Of a DNA stretch of 64,000 nucleotides, positions 33,484-42,942 are shown one piece after another (position 1 is the first letter of the stretch; each line of letters starts with the position of its first letter). The notes below the pieces were generated by a model. That model saw only the letters and a list, made by a program, of their open reading frames with translations, had not been told where the DNA came from and searched no databases. The position numbers were made by a program, and so were the translations under genes. The stretch is from positions 310,001 through 374,000 of the forward strand of contig NZ_SOBW01000008.1 in NCBI RefSeq assembly GCF_004364975.1, in the 5' to 3' direction. This DNA is from Gelidibacter sediminis. GTDB lineage: Bacteria; Bacteroidota; Bacteroidia; Flavobacteriales; Flavobacteriaceae.

Positions 33484-35445
33484 ATGAAGAATATATTACA
33501 AACCACAATTGCTCTTGTTGTAATCCTAATAGGGTTTACAAGTTGCAACAACTCAGAAAATTCGAAGGGCAAATCTGGTGCCTTGGCAAGTAATGTTGCT
33601 GAAAAAGTATATGTTGCACCAGGTGAGCATGATTCGCATTATGCATTTATTTCAGGAGGATACAGTGGAAACTTAACGGTTTACGGTTTGCCTTCTGGAA
33701 GGATGTTTAAAGAAATTCCAGTCTTCTCACAATTCCCAACCAATGGCTATGGATATTCTGAGGAAACAAAACCCTTATTAGAGACCTCATACGGATTTAT
33801 TCCTTGGGATGATTCGCATCACCCAGACATTTCTCAAACCAATGGAAAACTGGATGGACGTTGGGTTTTTATCAATGGAAACAACACCCCGCGTATTGCT
33901 CGAATCAGTTTGACCACATTTGAAACGGAAGAAATCATTGAAGTTCCAAACAGTGCAGGAAACCATAGTTCTTCTTTTATAACAGAAAACACAGAGTATG
34001 TAGTTGCAGGGACACGTTTTTCTGTGCCAGTACCTCAACGGGATATGCCAATTAAAGATTATAAGGGCAACTTTAAAGGCGCTTTAACTTTTATTTCTGT
34101 AGATCCTGAACATGGACATATGGATATCAAATTCCAAATTCTTATGCCAGGTTTTAATTATGATTTATCACATCCTGGACGTGGAAAGTCACACGGTTGG
34201 TTCTTCTTTACAACGTATAATACGGAAGAAGCAAGCTCATTATTAGAGGTCAATGCCTCTCAAAATGATAAAGATTTTATTGCCGCAATCAATTGGAAGA
34301 AAATTGAAGAATACGTCAATAATGGTGGTGGTAGAATGATGCCAACTAATTATGCACACAATGTTCATGATGAGGCAACGCACACTGCAACCTCTACAAT
34401 GAAGAAAGAAGTACGTGTTGTGGATCCAGCTGACATTCCTGGTGCAATTTATTTATTGCCTACACCAAAATCGCCACACGGGTGTGACGTAGATCCATCT
34501 GGTGAATATATTGTAGGTAATGGAAAATTATCGGCTAATTTAACGGTGCATTCTTTTACAAAAATGCTTGATGCCATCGAGAAGAAAAAATTTGACGGTG
34601 ATGCGTACGGTATTCCGATCTTAAAATTTGAAGACGTATTGGCAGGTTCTGTTGAACAACCAGGATTAGGCCCATTACATACAGAGTTTGATGGCAAAGG
34701 GAATGCATATACAACGTTCTTTATTTCTTCTGAAGTTGTTAAATGGAAATTAGGTACTTGGGAAGTTCTGGATAGAAAACCTACCTACTATTCGGTTGGT
34801 CACTTAACAATTCCTGGAGGCAACTCAAGAGAGCCATTTGGTAAATATATGTTTGCCATGAATAAAATTACCAAAGATCGTTACTTGCCTACTGGTCCAG
34901 AAATGGAGCACTCAGCACAGTTGTATGACATTTCTGGAGATAAAATGGAGTTATTAATAGATTTCCCAACACATGGTGAGCCCCATTATGCTGCTGCCAT
35001 TCCTGCGGAAATCATTAAAAATAATTCTAAGAAAATCTACCGACTGGCTGAAAATAAACATCCTAGAAAGACAACAACGGATGCTGAGACAAAAGTTGTA
35101 CGCGATGGTAAAAATGTACACGTGTATATGGCCATGATTCGCAGCCATTTCTCACCAGATAATATTGAGGGTATCAAAGTAGGAGACAAAGTTTTCTTTC
35201 ACTTGACAAACCTTGAGCAGGATTTTGATGTGCCACACGGTTTTGCGATGATTGGTGCTAATAATGCAGAATTATTAGTTGCTCCAGGTCAGACAAGAAC
35301 CTTAACCTGGGAACCAAAACAAGTAGGGGTATGGCCATTCTATTGTACAGACTTCTGCTCTGCACTTCATCAAGAAATGCAAGGTTATGTGCGAGTATCT
35401 CCTGCAGATTCCAACATCCAATTATCTTGGTCATTAGGTGACTAG
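33484..35445 (+). CDS. nosZ: Nitrous oxide reductase, clade II
   Basis: Reduces N2O to N2. The 653 residues start with a Sec lipoprotein signal (GFTSCNNSE, Cys21) in place of a Tat signal, which marks clade II. The seven-blade propeller holds the CuZ His ligands (DSHYAF, DDSHHPD, AHNVHDEATH, SPHGCDVD, LGPLHTEF, EHSAQLYD, HGEPHYA). The C-terminal cupredoxin domain carries CuA: C621, C625, H629 and M632 in WPFYCTDFCSALHQEMQ. It is cotranscribed with the nosC-like and fasciclin genes; a strong hairpin follows before the maturation genes. Confidence 0.97.
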   Translation: MKNILQTTIALVVILIGFTSCNNSENSKGKSGALASNVAEKVYVAPGEHDSHYAFISGGYSGNLTVYGLPSGRMFKEIPVFSQFPTNGYGYSEETKPLLETSYGFIPWDDSHHPDISQTNGKLDGRWVFINGNNTPRIARISLTTFETEEIIEVPNSAGNHSSSFITENTEYVVAGTRFSVPVPQRDMPIKDYKGNFKGALTFISVDPEHGHMDIKFQILMPGFNYDLSHPGRGKSHGWFFFTTYNTEEASSLLEVNASQNDKDFIAAINWKKIEEYVNNGGGRMMPTNYAHNVHDEATHTATSTMKKEVRVVDPADIPGAIYLLPTPKSPHGCDVDPSGEYIVGNGKLSANLTVHSFTKMLDAIEKKKFDGDAYGIPILKFEDVLAGSVEQPGLGPLHTEFDGKGNAYTTFFISSEVVKWKLGTWEVLDRKPTYYSVGHLTIPGGNSREPFGKYMFAMNKITKDRYLPTGPEMEHSAQLYDISGDKMELLIDFPTHGEPHYAAAIPAEIIKNNSKKIYRLAENKHPRKTTTDAETKVVRDGKNVHVYMAMIRSHFSPDNIEGIKVGDKVFFHLTNLEQDFDVPHGFAMIGANNAELLVAPGQTRTLTWEPKQVGVWPFYCTDFCSALHQEMQGYVRVSPADSNIQLSWSLGD

Positions 35446-35599: not shown

Positions 35600-36220
35600 A
35601 TGAAAACGGCTAGCATTATAATGATACTCGGTTCCTTGCTATTATTGGGACTCTTTAAATTCCCCCTCTGGAACATCATGCTTGGCGCACCACAATATCC
35701 AGACCCCTTAGGTATGAATATATATATTGATGGTATTAAGGGTGTTGAAGAATTTGATTTGCAAAATATTGATGGTATTAACCACTACATTGGCATGAAG
35801 ACCATCCCGAAACCCGAAGAAATGTGGGAGTTTTCCGTGTTTCCCAAAGTTATTTTGGGCATGTCAGTATTGGGTGTCATAATTGGCTTGTTGGGTTTTT
35901 TTGGAAAAGTAAGCTATAAATTCTTTTTAGGTTGGTTTGTTTTAATGGCCGTTTTAGGCCTTCTTGGGATGTATGATTTTAATAATTGGCTGATTTCTTA
36001 CGGCAGCGATCTGGATCCTAATGCAATTATTAAAGTGACCAATCCGGACGGTTCACCAATGTCCTATAAACCACCATTATTTGGCTTTCAAAAGCTACTT
36101 AACTTTGATGTAACATCATTACCCCATATAGGAGGTTACCTTATGTTTGTCGGGATGCTCTTAACCTTAATAGCATCATGGTTAGGAAGAAAGGCAAGTT
36201 TAAAAACATCTACGGCGTAA
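35600..36220 (+). CDS. Conserved membrane protein of the nos cluster, unknown function
   Basis: A 206-residue protein with four membrane segments (about 5-27, 84-105, 108-128 and 175-197). Two sizeable extracytoplasmic or loop regions (about 30-80 and 130-170) carry no Cys. I do not recognise a named family; a membrane protein near nosZ also occurs in other clade II clusters (for example the one called NosB). It lies after the nosZ terminator and 29 bp before nosL. Its place suggests a part in electron supply or NosZ maturation, which is inference. Confidence 0.6.
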   Translation: MKTASIIMILGSLLLLGLFKFPLWNIMLGAPQYPDPLGMNIYIDGIKGVEEFDLQNIDGINHYIGMKTIPKPEEMWEFSVFPKVILGMSVLGVIIGLLGFFGKVSYKFFLGWFVLMAVLGLLGMYDFNNWLISYGSDLDPNAIIKVTNPDGSPMSYKPPLFGFQKLLNFDVTSLPHIGGYLMFVGMLLTLIASWLGRKASLKTSTA

Positions 36221-36249: not shown

Positions 36250-36687
36250 ATGAAAACACTAAAACACTATTCAATTTTGGCATTACTGCTAGTCATGTTC
36301 AATTGTACTGTATCTCCCAAAGCCATAGATTATGGCAATGATGGCTGCAGCTTTTGTAAAATGACCATTGTAGACAAGACACATGCTGCGGAAATTGTAA
36401 CTAAAAAAAATAAAGCCTATAAATTTGACGCAACAGAATGTATGGTCAATTTTATGGATGATTTTAAGTCTTCAGAAATTGAACTTTTTCTCTCTAATGA
36501 TTTTTCTGAGCCAGGGACCTTGATTGATGCAAAGAAAGCAACATTCTTAATCAGTAAAAATATTCCAAGCCCTATGGGTGCCTATCTTTCAGCTTTTAAA
36601 AATAAAGCGGATGCCCAAAATAAGCAGGCTGAAGAAGGAGGCGATTTATACTCGTGGGAGGAATTATTAATGCATCTTAAAGGCTAG
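36250..36687 (+). CDS. nosL: NosL copper-binding lipoprotein
   Basis: A 145-residue outer-facing lipoprotein (Cys19 in VMFNCTVS). The copper motif is DGCSFCKMTI with C33, C36 and M38, followed by the NosL fold FDATECMVNFM, the segment around ATFLISKNIPSPMGAYLSAF and the C-terminal GGDLYSWEELL. NosL binds Cu(I) and hands it to the CuZ site through NosDFY. It ends 4 bp before nosD. Confidence 0.92.
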   Translation: MKTLKHYSILALLLVMFNCTVSPKAIDYGNDGCSFCKMTIVDKTHAAEIVTKKNKAYKFDATECMVNFMDDFKSSEIELFLSNDFSEPGTLIDAKKATFLISKNIPSPMGAYLSAFKNKADAQNKQAEEGGDLYSWEELLMHLKG

Positions 36688-36691
36688 CCAC

Positions 36692-37927
36692 ATGAAAAAG
36701 TTAGTCGTTTTTATGAGCGTCATGTTAATGACGGTTACATCTGTTGCACAAAAATTAGAAGTATGCAAAACCTGTGCAATTACTACAGTGCAAGCGGCTA
36801 TAACCCAGGCCAAGCCATTTGATACCATCATTATTAGGAAAGGCATTTATAAAGAGTTTGATCTCAATGTAGATAAACCGCTGACAATCATCGGGAAAAA
36901 CCAACCTGTAATTGATGGTGAATTAAAGGGTGAAATTATAACCATAACCTCAGACAATGTCGCCATTGACGGTCTTATCATTAAAAATGTCGGTACGAGT
37001 TATACATCAGATTATGCAGCAATTCGTGTAAAGCGGAGTAAAAATTTCACCATTCAAAATGTTGTTCTGGAAAAACTTTTTTTCGGAATATATATTGAAC
37101 GCTCTAATGATGGAAAGATTCTTAATAATAAGATCATCGGAGATGCGGTTGAAGAATACAACTCCGGAAATGGAATTCAGTTATGGTACAGTAAAAATAT
37201 TCAAATTGAACATAATGTTGTGCAACATGTGCGGGATGGTATTTATCTCGAATTCTCTGATTTTTGCACCATCAAAAACAACCTGAGCTCCTTAAATGTG
37301 AGATATGGCCTGCACTTTATGTTCTCCAATGACGATGTCTATGAGAATAATGAATTCTCTAATAATGGCGCTGGTGTGGCGGTCATGTTTTCCAAGCGCA
37401 TAAAAATGTATAATAATTTGTTCAAGGACAATTGGGGAACTGCGTCCTATGGCATGTTGCTAAAAGAAATTAATGATGCTGAGATTATTGGCAATACCTT
37501 TCATGACAACACCATTGGGATTAATATAGAAGGCTCTAACCGCATTATTTACAAACACAATAATTTCAGAAATAATGGTTGGGCCATTAAAGTCCGCGGA
37601 GCCTGCTACACCAATACGTTTACTGAAAATAATTTTTTATACAACTCTTTTGACATTGCCTACAACAGCAATGTTAATGATAATACATTCGATCGTAATT
37701 TTTGGAGCAGTTATACCGGTTATGATTTAAATAAAAATGGGATTGGTGATATTCCTTATAGACCGGTAAAATTATTTTCATACATCGTCAATCGCACCCC
37801 AGAGACCATCATATTATTGCGGAGCATGTTTATTGATATTATTGATTTCTCTGAAAAAGTGTCCCCTGTTTTCACCCCAGATGATTTGATGGATAATAAC
37901 CCTCTAATGAAAAAAGCCACATGGTAA
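36692..37927 (+). CDS. nosD: NosD periplasmic maturation protein
   Basis: A 411-residue exported protein (signal about 1-19). It is a right-handed parallel beta-helix built of CASH/NosD repeats, for example KNFTIQNVVLEKLFFGIYIERSNDG, NNKIIG and YENNEFSNNGAGVAV, and ends with the family motif NFWSSYTGYDLNKNGIGDIPYRP. NosD works with the NosFY transporter in loading copper and sulfur into CuZ. Its last seven bases overlap nosF. Confidence 0.93.
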   Translation: MKKLVVFMSVMLMTVTSVAQKLEVCKTCAITTVQAAITQAKPFDTIIIRKGIYKEFDLNVDKPLTIIGKNQPVIDGELKGEIITITSDNVAIDGLIIKNVGTSYTSDYAAIRVKRSKNFTIQNVVLEKLFFGIYIERSNDGKILNNKIIGDAVEEYNSGNGIQLWYSKNIQIEHNVVQHVRDGIYLEFSDFCTIKNNLSSLNVRYGLHFMFSNDDVYENNEFSNNGAGVAVMFSKRIKMYNNLFKDNWGTASYGMLLKEINDAEIIGNTFHDNTIGINIEGSNRIIYKHNNFRNNGWAIKVRGACYTNTFTENNFLYNSFDIAYNSNVNDNTFDRNFWSSYTGYDLNKNGIGDIPYRPVKLFSYIVNRTPETIILLRSMFIDIIDFSEKVSPVFTPDDLMDNNPLMKKATW

Positions 37928-38628
37928 CAATACAAGGTTTACATAAAAAATTCGGAAAAAATCTCGTCTTGAGCGGACTGGACCTGAGCATCAGCGCAGG
38001 TGGCATATTTGCCATTCTAGGCCCGAATGGTTCTGGAAAAACAACATTAATTAAGTCGGTATTAGGAATGGTCATTCCTGATAAAGGTGACATTACGGTA
38101 TTGGGTAAAAATATTACCCAGAATTCAGATTACCGCCATCAGATTGATTATTTGCCGCAAATCGCAAATTTCCCAAGTAACTTAAAGGTTAGGGAACTTA
38201 TAAAGATGATCAAGGATTTACGTAAATCTACCAAAGAAGATGAGCGCCTGATAGAATTGTTCAAACTAACGCCGTTTTTAGATAAGAAATTAGGCCAACT
38301 TTCTGGAGGTACAAAACAGAAAGTAAACCTGGTATTGACCTTTATGTTTGACAGCCCCATCATTATTTTAGATGAGCCTACTTCAGGTTTGGATCCCATT
38401 TCAATGCTTCGCTTAAAGGATTTAATTCAAACGGAAAAAGAAAAAGGAAAAACCATTCTAATCACTTCTCATATTATGAGTTTTGTTGAAGAAATCTCAG
38501 ATGAAATCGTCTTCATTTTGGAAGGCAAAATTTACTTTAAAGGAACCATATCAGAATTAAAAACCAAGACCAATCAGCCAGATTTTGAACATGCTATTGC
38601 GTCCATCTTAACTGACAATCATGCTTAA
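37921..38628 (+). CDS. nosF: NosF ABC-transporter ATPase
   Basis: A 235-residue cytoplasmic ATP-binding subunit. Walker A is GPNGSGKTT (34-42), the signature is LSGGTKQKVN, and Walker B is IIILDEPTSGLD, with the switch His in TSHIMSFVE. It powers NosY during CuZ assembly. The gene overlaps nosD by 7 bp and nosY by 8 bp, so the three are translationally coupled. Confidence 0.94.
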   Translation: MVTIQGLHKKFGKNLVLSGLDLSISAGGIFAILGPNGSGKTTLIKSVLGMVIPDKGDITVLGKNITQNSDYRHQIDYLPQIANFPSNLKVRELIKMIKDLRKSTKEDERLIELFKLTPFLDKKLGQLSGGTKQKVNLVLTFMFDSPIIILDEPTSGLDPISMLRLKDLIQTEKEKGKTILITSHIMSFVEEISDEIVFILEGKIYFKGTISELKTKTNQPDFEHAIASILTDNHA

Positions 38629-39403
38629 AATATTAAAATATAGTTTTTATGACCTGATGCGCAGCCGTTGGAGTTATGTCTATTTTGCATTCTATCTCCT
38701 GCTTGGCATCGTCTTATTATTCTTAAATAACGATTTATCAAAAGCGGTCATCACCCTAATGAATGTCATCATTATTCTGGTGCCGTTAATAGGAACCATT
38801 TTTGGAGTCATGTATTATTACAATTCTAAAGAATTTACAGAACTGCTGTTGGCACAACCTTTAAAACGCTCTTCTATTTTTTTGGGACAGTATTTAGGCG
38901 TCGCAATATCGCTATCCATGAGTTTAATTTTAGGATTAGGATTGCCATTTGTATTCTACGGATTGTTTGAGAGTAGTGCCATCTGGGACTTTTCATTGCT
39001 GCTGATAACTGGAACATTTTTGACCTTAATTTTTACTGCGCTTGCTTTTAACATAGCGCTTTCCAATGAAAATAAAATCAAAGGCTTTGGTTATGCCATC
39101 TTGCTATGGCTCTTTTTAGCGGTTATTTATGATGGCATATTTTTAATGATATTGATAGGTTTTGAAGAATATCCATTAGATAAGGTATCATTAATTGGCA
39201 CCATGCTGAATCCTATAGATTTATCCCGAACCTTGATTCTATTAAAATTGGATATTTCTGCATTATTAGGCTACACTGGCGCCATTTTTAAACAGTTTTT
39301 TGGAACTAGTTTTGGATTGATAGTTTCTTTTATTGCCTTAAGTTTATGGGTAATAGTACCTGTACTGCGCATTGTCTATAAATCGAAGAAAAAGGATTTT
39401 TAA
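38621..39403 (+). CDS. nosY: NosY ABC-transporter permease
   Basis: A 260-residue membrane protein of the ABC-2 type with six segments, starting LKILKYSFYDLMRSRWSYVYFAFY. The block MYYYNSKEFTELLLAQPLKRSSIFLGQYLG is typical for NosY. It forms the membrane part of NosFY, which couples ATP hydrolysis to NosD and NosL action outside. Last gene of the overlapping nosDFY set. Confidence 0.92.
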   Translation: MLKILKYSFYDLMRSRWSYVYFAFYLLLGIVLLFLNNDLSKAVITLMNVIIILVPLIGTIFGVMYYYNSKEFTELLLAQPLKRSSIFLGQYLGVAISLSMSLILGLGLPFVFYGLFESSAIWDFSLLLITGTFLTLIFTALAFNIALSNENKIKGFGYAILLWLFLAVIYDGIFLMILIGFEEYPLDKVSLIGTMLNPIDLSRTLILLKLDISALLGYTGAIFKQFFGTSFGLIVSFIALSLWVIVPVLRIVYKSKKKDF

Positions 39404-39974: not shown

Positions 39975-40820
39975 ATGAAATTAAAATATATCATCTCAAT
40001 CCTATGTGTCGTCCTATTTACGCTCTCCTGTTCTACAGATGACGATACCAACTCAATACTTAATGAAGTGGAAGATCTTATCAAAATTCAAGATATTAAT
40101 AATAACACACACACCATTGAATTCTTTAATAAAACTGGCAAATTTGAAACAGGGTACAACGCGATTAGTTTGCGCATCAAAGATAACACCACTGATACTT
40201 ATGTGGAGAATGCCTCACTAAATTGGATACCGGTCATGCAAATGCCAACTACAGCGCATTCTTCACCAAAATCTGAGATTTCAAAAACCATAGGAATGAA
40301 GACTGTTTATGAAGGGTTTATTGTCTATCAAATGGCAAATCTTGATGGTTCAGGATGGTCGTTATCTATAGATTATACAATTGATGGCAATACCTATAAT
40401 GCCAGTTCAGATATTGTGGTGATGCAAAGCGAATTTCAAAATGTAACCAGTTTTACTGGTGCTGATGAAAAGCGTTATGTGCTGGTCCTGAGGGCGCCAG
40501 AAGAGCCTAAAATAGCGATTAACAGGTTGAAAGTTGGCTTGTTTACCATGGAAACAATGATGTCATTTCCGGTAGTTGAAGCTTTTAGAATGACCTTGGA
40601 TCCACGTATGCCTGGGATGGGAAACCACAGTTCTCCAAACAATACGGATTTGACCTACAATAGTGCAAAACAATTGTATGAGGGTAATTTATCCTTAACA
40701 ATGACGGGCTATTGGGTGCTCAACCTACAATTGTTGAATGCTGCTGGAGAACTTCTTAAAGGAGAACCAATCACTGAGGATCATCCAAAAAGTTCACTTT
40801 ATTTAGAACTTGAATTTTAA
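39975..40820 (+). CDS. Lipoprotein with Met/His-rich repeats, next to the copper receptor
   Basis: A 281-residue lipoprotein (Cys19 in FTLSCSTDD). It appears to hold two Ig-like domains (about 30-150 and 155-281) of the YtkA/FixH type. Each has a Met/His cluster: PVMQMPTTAHSSP near residues 79-91 and DPRMPGMGNHSSP near 212-224. Such MxM and His clusters suit copper ions. It lies between the Cys-motif protein and the OprC/NosA-like receptor, so a copper-relay role at the inner face of the outer membrane is inferred. Confidence 0.6.
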   Translation: MKLKYIISILCVVLFTLSCSTDDDTNSILNEVEDLIKIQDINNNTHTIEFFNKTGKFETGYNAISLRIKDNTTDTYVENASLNWIPVMQMPTTAHSSPKSEISKTIGMKTVYEGFIVYQMANLDGSGWSLSIDYTIDGNTYNASSDIVVMQSEFQNVTSFTGADEKRYVLVLRAPEEPKIAINRLKVGLFTMETMMSFPVVEAFRMTLDPRMPGMGNHSSPNNTDLTYNSAKQLYEGNLSLTMTGYWVLNLQLLNAAGELLKGEPITEDHPKSSLYLELEF

Positions 40821-40944: not shown

Positions 40945-42942
40945 ATGAAAAAGCTCATAACAGCTGTCATTTTGGTGTTTTGTTACGGATTTATAGTCGC
41001 TCAAGAATCAAATGACACTAAAAAAGATACCACCAAATTAGAAGAGATTACTTTGGTTGGCCGACGTCAATTAAGCAATTACCGTCAAGAGAAAACCTTA
41101 TCAAGTATAGACGATTATTTAGAAAAATCGAATAAAATTACCATGATCAAACGTGGTAATTACGCTTGGGAACCGGCCATGAACAACATGAATAGCGAAC
41201 GTTTAAACGTTACTATTGATGGCATGCAAATATTTGGAGCATGTACAGATAAAATGGATCCCATCACCTCTTATGTAGATGTGTCCAACTTACAAAAAGT
41301 AAGCGTAGGTTCAGGACAATCGGGTTCAGAGAACGGTCATACCATTGGGGGCGGTATCGATTTGCAATTACCAACTGCTAAATTCTACCAATCTGGATTA
41401 AAAACGAGCGTCGATTTGGGTTACGAAACCAACGGCAATTATAAAACCGGCGGACTGGACCTTGAATATTCCGGAGATCGTTTTTATTTCAATACGGACG
41501 GGATTTTTCGAAAATCAGATAATTATGATGCCGGAGATCGTCATGAAGTATTATACTCGCAATTCCAGAAGTATAATATTTCATTACAAACCGGGTATAA
41601 GCTCAATGATAAACATACGTTGGATGCCGCTATTATTTATGATAAAGCTACAGATGTGGGCTATCCAGCACTGACGATGGATGTGTCGCTTGCAGAAGCG
41701 CTGATCACTTCGGTGACCCATAATTATGCGAATGACTCTACGTTTATCGAATCGTTGGAGTCGAAATTGTATTTCAATACCATTACGCACGTTATGGACG
41801 ATTCCAAGCGTCCTATTGTACCTATCCGTATGGATATGCCCGGGTGGAGCGACACCTACGGATTTTACAGTAAAGCGGCTATGAGTATCAGCAAACACAC
41901 ACTTTTAGTAAATCTTAACGGGTTTTACAACCGTTCTTTGGCTGAAATGACCATGTACCCAAATGATCCTAATCAATCCGCAATGTTTATGTACACTTGG
42001 CCTGATATCAGAACTTTATATTCTGGAATCTATGCTAAAGATGTGTACGCCTTTAATGAGCATGCGTCTCTGTCTGCAGCGGTGAGAGTTGGATTTCACC
42101 GGAATGAAATTGCTAAAAAAACAGGTTTGCAAAGTCTTCAGATCTTCTATCCAAGCATTGAGGATACAAAACACCGAGTATTGTCGAGTTTTACTACAGA
42201 TTATACGTTTAAAAAGCAGCACTATGATGTATCATTTGGTGTAGGCTATGGTGAAAGAGCGCCTTCAGTAAGTGAAGGGTATGGTTTTTTCCTCTTCAAT
42301 AGTTTTGATAATTATGATTATATTGGAAACCCAACCTTAAAGAACGAAAAAGCTTTGGAAGCTAATGTTAAGGCCAATTACCACAAGCGTAATTTTCATA
42401 TAGGTGTAGAGACCTCATATTTCTATATCATGGACTATATCATAGGAACCATTGACGAAAGTTTGAGTTCCATGACCATTGGTGCCAACGGTGTCAGGAT
42501 GTATAGCGCGTTATCCAATGCCCGCATATTTGACGTGTATATAAATTCAAGTTACAAATTATCACGTTCATTTTCTGTCAATGGAACCATAGGCTATAAT
42601 TATGGAACCGGCAGTAATGATGAGAACCTGCCCTTGATCAAACCATTTACCTATATCGCTGAAGTAAACTATTCTACATCAAAATTTAATGCAGCGCTTC
42701 AGTTGGAAGGGAATGGCAACCAAAGTAACTATGGCAGTTTTTATGGTGAAGATGAGACACCTGGATATGCAATTTTAAATCTGAATTTAGGAAATAAATT
42801 GATTATTCAGAACAATAAAGTTGTCCTCAAATATGGAGTCGAAAATATTTTGGATGCGAGCTATTCAACTTATGCTGATTGGAAAAACATTCCCAGACAA
42901 GGCCGTAATTTTTATATGAACTTGTCTTTTGTGATCCGTTAA
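40945..42942 (+). CDS. OprC/NosA-like copper TonB-dependent receptor
   Basis: A 665-residue outer-membrane receptor: signal 1-20, plug at about 35-145, and a barrel ending FYMNLSFVIR. The plug holds C100-TDK-M104 (FGACTDKMDP) and the first barrel half holds H282-V-M284 (TITHVMDD). CxxxM plus HxM is the copper site described for Pseudomonas OprC, with nearly the same spacing between the two halves (182 here, 180 in OprC by residue number). NosA, the P. stutzeri homologue, is needed for copper loading of N2O reductase. The location after nosLDFY supports copper import for NosZ and NirK. Confidence 0.85.
   Translation: MKKLITAVILVFCYGFIVAQESNDTKKDTTKLEEITLVGRRQLSNYRQEKTLSSIDDYLEKSNKITMIKRGNYAWEPAMNNMNSERLNVTIDGMQIFGACTDKMDPITSYVDVSNLQKVSVGSGQSGSENGHTIGGGIDLQLPTAKFYQSGLKTSVDLGYETNGNYKTGGLDLEYSGDRFYFNTDGIFRKSDNYDAGDRHEVLYSQFQKYNISLQTGYKLNDKHTLDAAIIYDKATDVGYPALTMDVSLAEALITSVTHNYANDSTFIESLESKLYFNTITHVMDDSKRPIVPIRMDMPGWSDTYGFYSKAAMSISKHTLLVNLNGFYNRSLAEMTMYPNDPNQSAMFMYTWPDIRTLYSGIYAKDVYAFNEHASLSAAVRVGFHRNEIAKKTGLQSLQIFYPSIEDTKHRVLSSFTTDYTFKKQHYDVSFGVGYGERAPSVSEGYGFFLFNSFDNYDYIGNPTLKNEKALEANVKANYHKRNFHIGVETSYFYIMDYIIGTIDESLSSMTIGANGVRMYSALSNARIFDVYINSSYKLSRSFSVNGTIGYNYGTGSNDENLPLIKPFTYIAEVNYSTSKFNAALQLEGNGNQSNYGSFYGEDETPGYAILNLNLGNKLIIQNNKVVLKYGVENILDASYSTYADWKNIPRQGRNFYMNLSFVIR

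Follow-up and report, generated by a model that had tools for sequence, protein, structure and literature searches.

The 64,000-nucleotide stretch of Gelidibacter sediminis DNA analysed here (the window) carries on its forward strand a nos cluster with a clade II nitrous-oxide reductase and, further downstream, the genes of a YtkA-like lipoprotein and of a predicted TonB-dependent copper receptor (Table 1). The sequence-only reading had placed this receptor next to nosDFY. It does lie on the same strand, downstream of the NosZ, NosL, NosD, NosF and NosY-like genes, but two genes, those of a small cysteine-containing protein and of the lipoprotein, separate it from the permease gene. In the accessible part of PMC7477175, flavobacterial nos clusters are described up to nosY and the receptor is omitted.

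Table 1. Features of the nos cluster, the lipoprotein and the receptor in the window (receptor classes A and B are defined in the text)
Feature	Position	Strand	Basis or remark
Cytochrome c-like protein	from 32381	+	
Fasciclin-domain protein	from 32883	+	
NosZ, clade II (Sec-dependent) nitrous-oxide reductase	33484..35445	+	TIGR04246 940 bits, cut-off 625
Conserved membrane protein between nosZ and nosL	35600..36220	+	family searches: none matched
NosL, copper lipoprotein chaperone	36250..36687	+	PF05573
NosD	36692..37927	+	PF05048, TIGR04247
ABC ATPase in NosF position	37921..38628	+	PF00005
NosY-like permease	38621..39403	+	PF12679 below cut-off; position
Small protein with invariant C44, C53-x-G55-x-C57 and P126-P127	39476..39871	+	family searches: none matched
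YtkA-like lipoprotein, predicted surface partner of the receptor	39975..40820	+	281 aa; two Ig-like domains in model
Lipid-anchor Cys19 followed by S-T-D-D-D	40029..40046	+	resembles published Bacteroidota lipoprotein export signals
M212-P-G-M215-G-N-H-S-S-P-N-N, candidate copper-binding segment of the lipoprotein	40608..40643	+	M212 and M215 invariant in 37/37 rows
Class A OprC-like TonB-dependent copper receptor (predicted)	40945..42942	+	665 aa; ORF, profile scores, PDB matches, model, tree
C100xxxM104, plug half of predicted copper site	41242..41256	+	motif, alignment to OprC, conservation
M245	41677..41679	+	aligned with OprC M286 in two alignments; kept in 33/33 class A and 18/18 class B rows
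H282xM284, barrel half of predicted copper site	41788..41796	+	motif, alignment to OprC, conservation
M296 and M298	41830..41838	+	loop holding OprC M339/M341/M343, register uncertain; 33/33 class A and 0/18 class B rows
M335, M337, M347	41947..41985	+	kept in 33/33, 33/33 and 32/33 class A rows

Divergent from the nos cluster, the minus strand of the window between 43377 and 55000 holds ccoG-, ccoH-, ccoP- and ccoNO-like genes for a cbb3 oxidase and its maturation, as judged by reading the ORFs, together with genes for an Rrf2 regulator and a RIC/YtfE repair protein. The cbb3 oxidase beside the nos cluster is a second copper consumer within reach. Searches for regulatory sites gave null results: 48 sigma-70-like promoter sites were found for 44.5 expected, 9 terminator-like sites for 7.3 expected, and 3 copies of a Bacteroidota-type promoter pattern for 5.6 expected, none of them between nosY and the receptor; a short form of the latter pattern occurred 24 times in locus L086 for 29.7 expected.

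Copper-site motifs and fold of the receptor

The receptor contains a single CxxxM motif, C100TDKM104, and a single HxM motif, H282VM284, the pair in which the sequence-only reading had recognised the copper site of OprC from Pseudomonas aeruginosa. The four residues align with the OprC copper ligands Cys143, Met147, His323 and Met325 in a phmmer search of the PDB (ligand numbers from PMC8610252), and the spacing given for them also proved correct, with 182 residues from Cys to His against 180 in OprC. The search was run to an E-value of 10 over 177,635 distinct PDB sequences, and its only matches were six OprC sequences (best E 7e-21). When the receptor protein was shuffled 100,000 times, both motifs occurred in 1,704 shuffles and lay 175-185 residues apart in 30; a chance motif was ruled out by these shuffles and by the conservation of the residues.

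For conservation and neighbourhoods we used two samples. Among 395 Bacteroidota genomes searched, 117 had a receptor relative at E up to 1e-10, and 80 regions were chosen by hand from the listed relatives as a phylum sample, which omits some relatives with E below 1e-20 (e.g., the second G191 copy, G194, G274, G364, G195, G081, and G003) and most weaker ones. The second sample, the close relatives, comprises the best 80 of 339 loci found with patterns from the window receptor and is biased to near kin. Loci L002-L030 duplicate places in L111-L140 and were excluded from the counts. The sequence-only reading had pointed to Bacteroidota homologues as the place to look for the four residues. All four were kept in 80 of the 81 rows formed by the receptor and its close relatives and in 73 of the 80 phylum-sample rows, the identity falling to about 22% in the most distant receptors. 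The single incomplete row among the 81, from a Lutibacter metagenome assembly (L109, 10001-11977), reads HVV, with valine in place of the last methionine, either a change or an assembly error. In the phylum sample, glycine replaces the cysteine in five rows and two rows were not alignable at that position. The closest receptor in named genomes was that of G. salicanalis (92% identical), in a search from which the window's own records may be missing.

The AlphaFold2 model of the receptor (62-sequence alignment) had a pLDDT of 90.0 and a pTM of 0.86. Foldseek placed OprC on top (E 1.4e-39, TM 0.82), the first 28 rows all being OprC with PhuR and ZnuD behind, and VIA-align 2 superposed the model on OprC with Z 39.5 and 2.4 A over 595 residues, ZnuD coming next with Z 36.5. 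The fold scores of the zinc receptor ZnuD and of haem receptors were thus close behind those of OprC. The model supports a TonB-dependent barrel-plug fold whose nearest match among solved structures is OprC, and alignment and superposable fold together support the predicted OprC-type copper site. As for haem itself, a haem receptor was rejected on its profile score (TIGR01785, 71.5 bits, far under the cut-off of 316.85).

Several methionines of the receptor may correspond to the methionine track of OprC, in which M286 is an Ag(I)-binding residue (PMC8610252). Besides M245, its counterpart, M337 aligns with OprC M387. For M296 and M298 the alignments disagree, as these residues match M339/M341 in the PDB phmmer alignment and M343/S345 in the multi-row alignment. 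The passage on Ag3 in PMC8610252 names Met348 as a silver ligand; the PDB chain carries Asp at this position and a Met at 448, and the published number may be a printing error.

Receptor classes and their genomic neighbours

From the wording of the motif in the receptor alignment we defined three classes. Class A, with a GAC[TVI]D[KR]MDP-like motif and an HxM mostly followed by DD, comprises 48 phylum-sample loci, the close relatives and the window receptor; class B carries ACPNRMDP, as in OprC (24 phylum-sample loci), and class C has Gly in the Cys position (5 phylum-sample loci). In an unrooted 61-row tree, class A (33 rows) was set apart from all other rows by a branch with 100/100 support and class B (18 rows) by another with 100/98, while OprC and two proteobacterial relatives, the only three proteobacterial rows, fell on the B/C side. 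One receptor labelled class C in the tree despite a CMHM set (L190) grouped with an Acetobacter protein, so that two changes are required in the tree for class C and likewise two for the proteobacterial rows. The class C receptors L180, L181, L183, L185, and L186 keep M-HxM but read GPARMDS and have Leu at the equivalent of M286. As the OprC mutant C143A binds no copper (PMC8610252), class C probably carries another substrate.

By its sequence the window receptor thus belongs to a Bacteroidota clade separate from OprC and is no OprC/NosA ortholog. The sequence-only reading had seen in it an extension of the OprC/NosA type to a Bacteroidota clade II nos cluster. Its OprC-type site, fold and nos linkage stand, but the clade is a separate one, the score against the OprC/NosA equivalog TIGR01778 (141.3 bits) lies below the cut-off of 472.45, and the motif was already published for Bizionia argentinensis (PMC11213822), which pre-empts the main claim to novelty. 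G2EC70, the protein concerned, is a flavobacterial TonB receptor with CxxxM-HxM, 21.8% identical to OprC, and a receptor of the same species in our sample (L049) is 73% identical to that of the window. In the accessible text of this 2024 paper NosL is listed nearby by locus number, and neither nos linkage nor a partner lipoprotein is mentioned ('ytka', 0 occurrences).

Among known systems, OprC and NosA have been identified experimentally as copper receptors (PMC8610252). OprC (PDB 6fok, 6z8q) shares with our receptor the TonB-dependent fold, the CxxxM-HxM pair and at least one track position, M286, but is only 20-21% identical to it over the structural alignment, and class A differs further by its lipoprotein partner gene (read from the class A side only) and its class A-specific methionines. 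NosA of Pseudomonas stutzeri is likewise an OprC-type receptor tied to nitrous-oxide reductase; it is about 60% identical to OprC, unlike the window receptor, and its serving of NosZ is disputed in PMC8610252. A NosA/OprC cluster has been noted among marine TonB receptors (PMC3400609), and OprC has been placed in a cluster map (PMC2771747). The CrtA copper receptors form a different family with two conserved His and no conserved Cys or Met according to PMC12914433, whereas class A keeps Cys and Met.

The lipoprotein gene accompanies class A closely. With the same strand and a distance of at most 2.5 kb required, it was found beside the receptor in 79 of the 80 close relatives, at a median gap of 91 bases, and in 44 of the 48 class A loci, at a median gap of 60 bases; none of the 24 class B and 5 class C loci had it. 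The one close relative scored without it (L094) has a fragment at the contig edge, and of the four class A misses, two exceed the Pfam YtkA cut-off (L137 and L148), one has a candidate by eye (L141) and one has none visible (L132). The window lipoprotein itself scores under the Pfam YtkA cut-off. Its model (pLDDT 92.6) consists of two Ig-like domains, and a fold search returned generic Ig-like matches only (best Z 8.9 over 91 residues), with no CopC-like or other copper fold among the matches listed; NCBIfam gave no useful name for it or for the small Cys protein. C19, M212, M215, and M243 were invariant in the 37 aligned rows.

The residues after Cys19 resemble the signals SDDDD and SDDFE, which were shown to direct a lipoprotein to the cell surface of Capnocytophaga (PMC5080379). 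We examined 124 lipoproteins and 78 NosL proteins, of which 120 and 73 had a recognisable lipobox. At least two acidic residues in the six positions after the lipobox Cys were present in 100/120 lipoproteins against 4/73 NosL and, where both were readable in the same locus, in 61/68 against 4/68. The signal was found in 72/75 lipoproteins of close relatives and in only 27/44 of more distant ones, so that the cell surface is a likely location for relatives close to the window lipoprotein but an uncertain one for the others.

The linkage of the receptor to a clade II nos cluster, as first read from the window, is conserved in close relatives, 64 of 80 having NosZ or NosD in the fetched stretch, as do 14/48 class A and 2/24 class B loci. 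In three loci (L147, L156, and L161) the nos cluster itself contains the lipoprotein-receptor pair, placed between nosL and nosD. A different context, genes for MbnP and an MbnH-like di-haem protein beside the receptor, was recovered in 17/48 class A loci and in none of the 24 class B loci, 5 class C loci and 80 close relatives. These genes lie directly at the class A receptors of L115-L123, L130, L135, L137, L140, L141, L144, L148, and L151. The MbnP and MbnH models were built from class A loci, and an independent Pfam search finds MbnP at the same 17 places; Pfam MbnP exceeded its cut-off at L137 and L148, and the NCBIfam equivalogs remained under theirs. L135 is the sole locus with both contexts, and the fetched stretch of 18/48 class A loci lacks nos genes as well as a complete Mbn pair. 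A search with PF20243 did not find MbnP in the genome of the window. MbnP-MbnH is itself a copper-linked gene pair, noted near MbnT-like TonB receptors in methanotrophs (PMC3621798). The small CxGxC/PP protein, of membrane type, is encoded near 23/48 class A and 13/24 class B receptors and is perhaps a copper sensor or chaperone for both classes.

At the level of whole genomes, with kinship ignored in all tests, NosZ was present in 27/47 class A genomes against 102/348 others (Fisher p 2e-4), MbnP in 28/47 against 67/348 (p 2e-8), and at least one of them in 44/47 against 154/348 (p 2e-11), NosZ and MbnP not being associated with each other (p 0.26). The count of 47 is a minimum, as G258 looks like a class A fragment. 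Three of the 47 have neither protein. NosZ had no match in 20 of the 47, of which 18 are safer, the nos clusters of G109 and G212 being cut by contig ends.

Proposed function of the receptor and lipoprotein

The residues, their conservation, the fold match and the gene linkage were observed directly. Because the receptor has the same ligands and fold as OprC and at least one methionine in line with the OprC track, and class A loci adjoin nos or MbnP-MbnH, import of copper is very probably its function, by far the likeliest one. The reading that we find likely overall is that class A receptor and lipoprotein make up a lipoprotein-assisted importer of ionic copper, serving nos here and other cuproproteins elsewhere. 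We infer copper as the substrate, the topology of the lipoprotein, the hand-over and the destination as follows. The YtkA-like lipoprotein would be the partner of the TonB-dependent receptor, anchored in the outer membrane and most likely facing outward, and its conserved Met and His would bind copper, which would then be handed on to the barrel. A methionine track, shown for OprC, would feed copper from outside to a site where, on the model of OprC, the CxxxM of the plug meets the HxM of the barrel, and remodelling of the plug by TonB would release it to the periplasm. In the putative operon of the window copper would then pass via NosL to NosZ; in related operons it would serve other cuproproteins such as MbnP.

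Capture at the surface is modelled on BtuB-BtuG of Bacteroides (PMC10404256), a TonB receptor encoded with a surface lipoprotein that offers a model of how such a pair may act, although its ligand is vitamin B12 and BtuG is a beta propeller, in contrast to the two Ig-like domains of the window lipoprotein. Pressed further, this analogy suggests a Bacteroidota-specific two-part importer in which the methionine-conserved Ig-like surface lipoprotein would cover an OprC-type barrel as a lid that catches copper, and the cell would connect this module to nos, for N2O respiration, or to MbnP-MbnH as needed; we hold this version possible but somewhat doubtful.

The main competitor concerns the side of the membrane on which the lipoprotein works. 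It could be an inward-facing periplasmic chaperone, passing copper from a general copper receptor to NosL or MbnP, and its conserved Met and His and Ig-like fold would suit such a role equally well, as would the weakness of the export-type signal in distant relatives (27/44). In close relatives, however, the residues after the Cys resemble published surface-export signals almost throughout (72/75), and NosL from these loci, which functions in the periplasm, shows them in just 4/73; we therefore regard an inward-facing lipoprotein as rather unlikely. The identity of the cargo raises a different question, and uptake of chelated copper (a chalkophore) or of some other metal, for instance zinc, instead of free copper seems improbable to us. 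In its favour, chelated Cu(II) is the cargo of CrtA, a further TonB receptor for copper (PMC12914433), among non-haem metal receptors ZnuD follows OprC most closely in fold, and MbnP-MbnH is known from methanobactin operons (PMC3621798). Against this, the soft S/N ligands and conserved methionines match OprC, which is reported to take ionic copper, and the CrtA receptors are described as having no conserved Cys or Met in the accessible text of PMC12914433.

As to the destination, the sequence-only reading had invoked the function of NosA, i.e., a supply of copper to NosZ alone. Such a role agrees with the nos linkage in close relatives (64/80), with the position of the pair between nosL and nosD in the three loci mentioned above and with the enrichment of NosZ in class A genomes (27/47 against 102/348). 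It does not fit the clade, since 20/47 class A genomes show no NosZ (18 without G109 and G212); moreover, 17/48 class A loci adjoin MbnP-MbnH and in 102 NosZ genomes no class A receptor was found. A receptor dedicated to NosZ thus has, in our view, a low probability, and an importer of ionic copper serving several cuproproteins is preferred.

Two features of this proposed importer appear to be new with respect to the open-access literature, where we found no report of a YtkA-like lipoprotein preceding class A receptors and none linking an OprC-type receptor to MbnP-MbnH; class A loci beside nos or beside MbnP-MbnH were likewise found in none of it. The search covered open-access papers, and a subscription paper of 2019 on MbnH may already report MbnP-MbnH as neighbours of TonB receptors.

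The reduction of N2O can be limited by copper, and bacteria with clade II NosZ, among which there are many Bacteroidota, are an important sink for this gas. The papers covered by the search do not establish how copper enters through the outer membrane of these bacteria, and the receptor-lipoprotein module is a testable answer. One receptor clade is tied to both NosZ and MbnP-MbnH, and with Gelidibacter, Bizionia or Flavobacterium there are culturable bacteria in which to test what this receptor carries and what the lipoprotein does.
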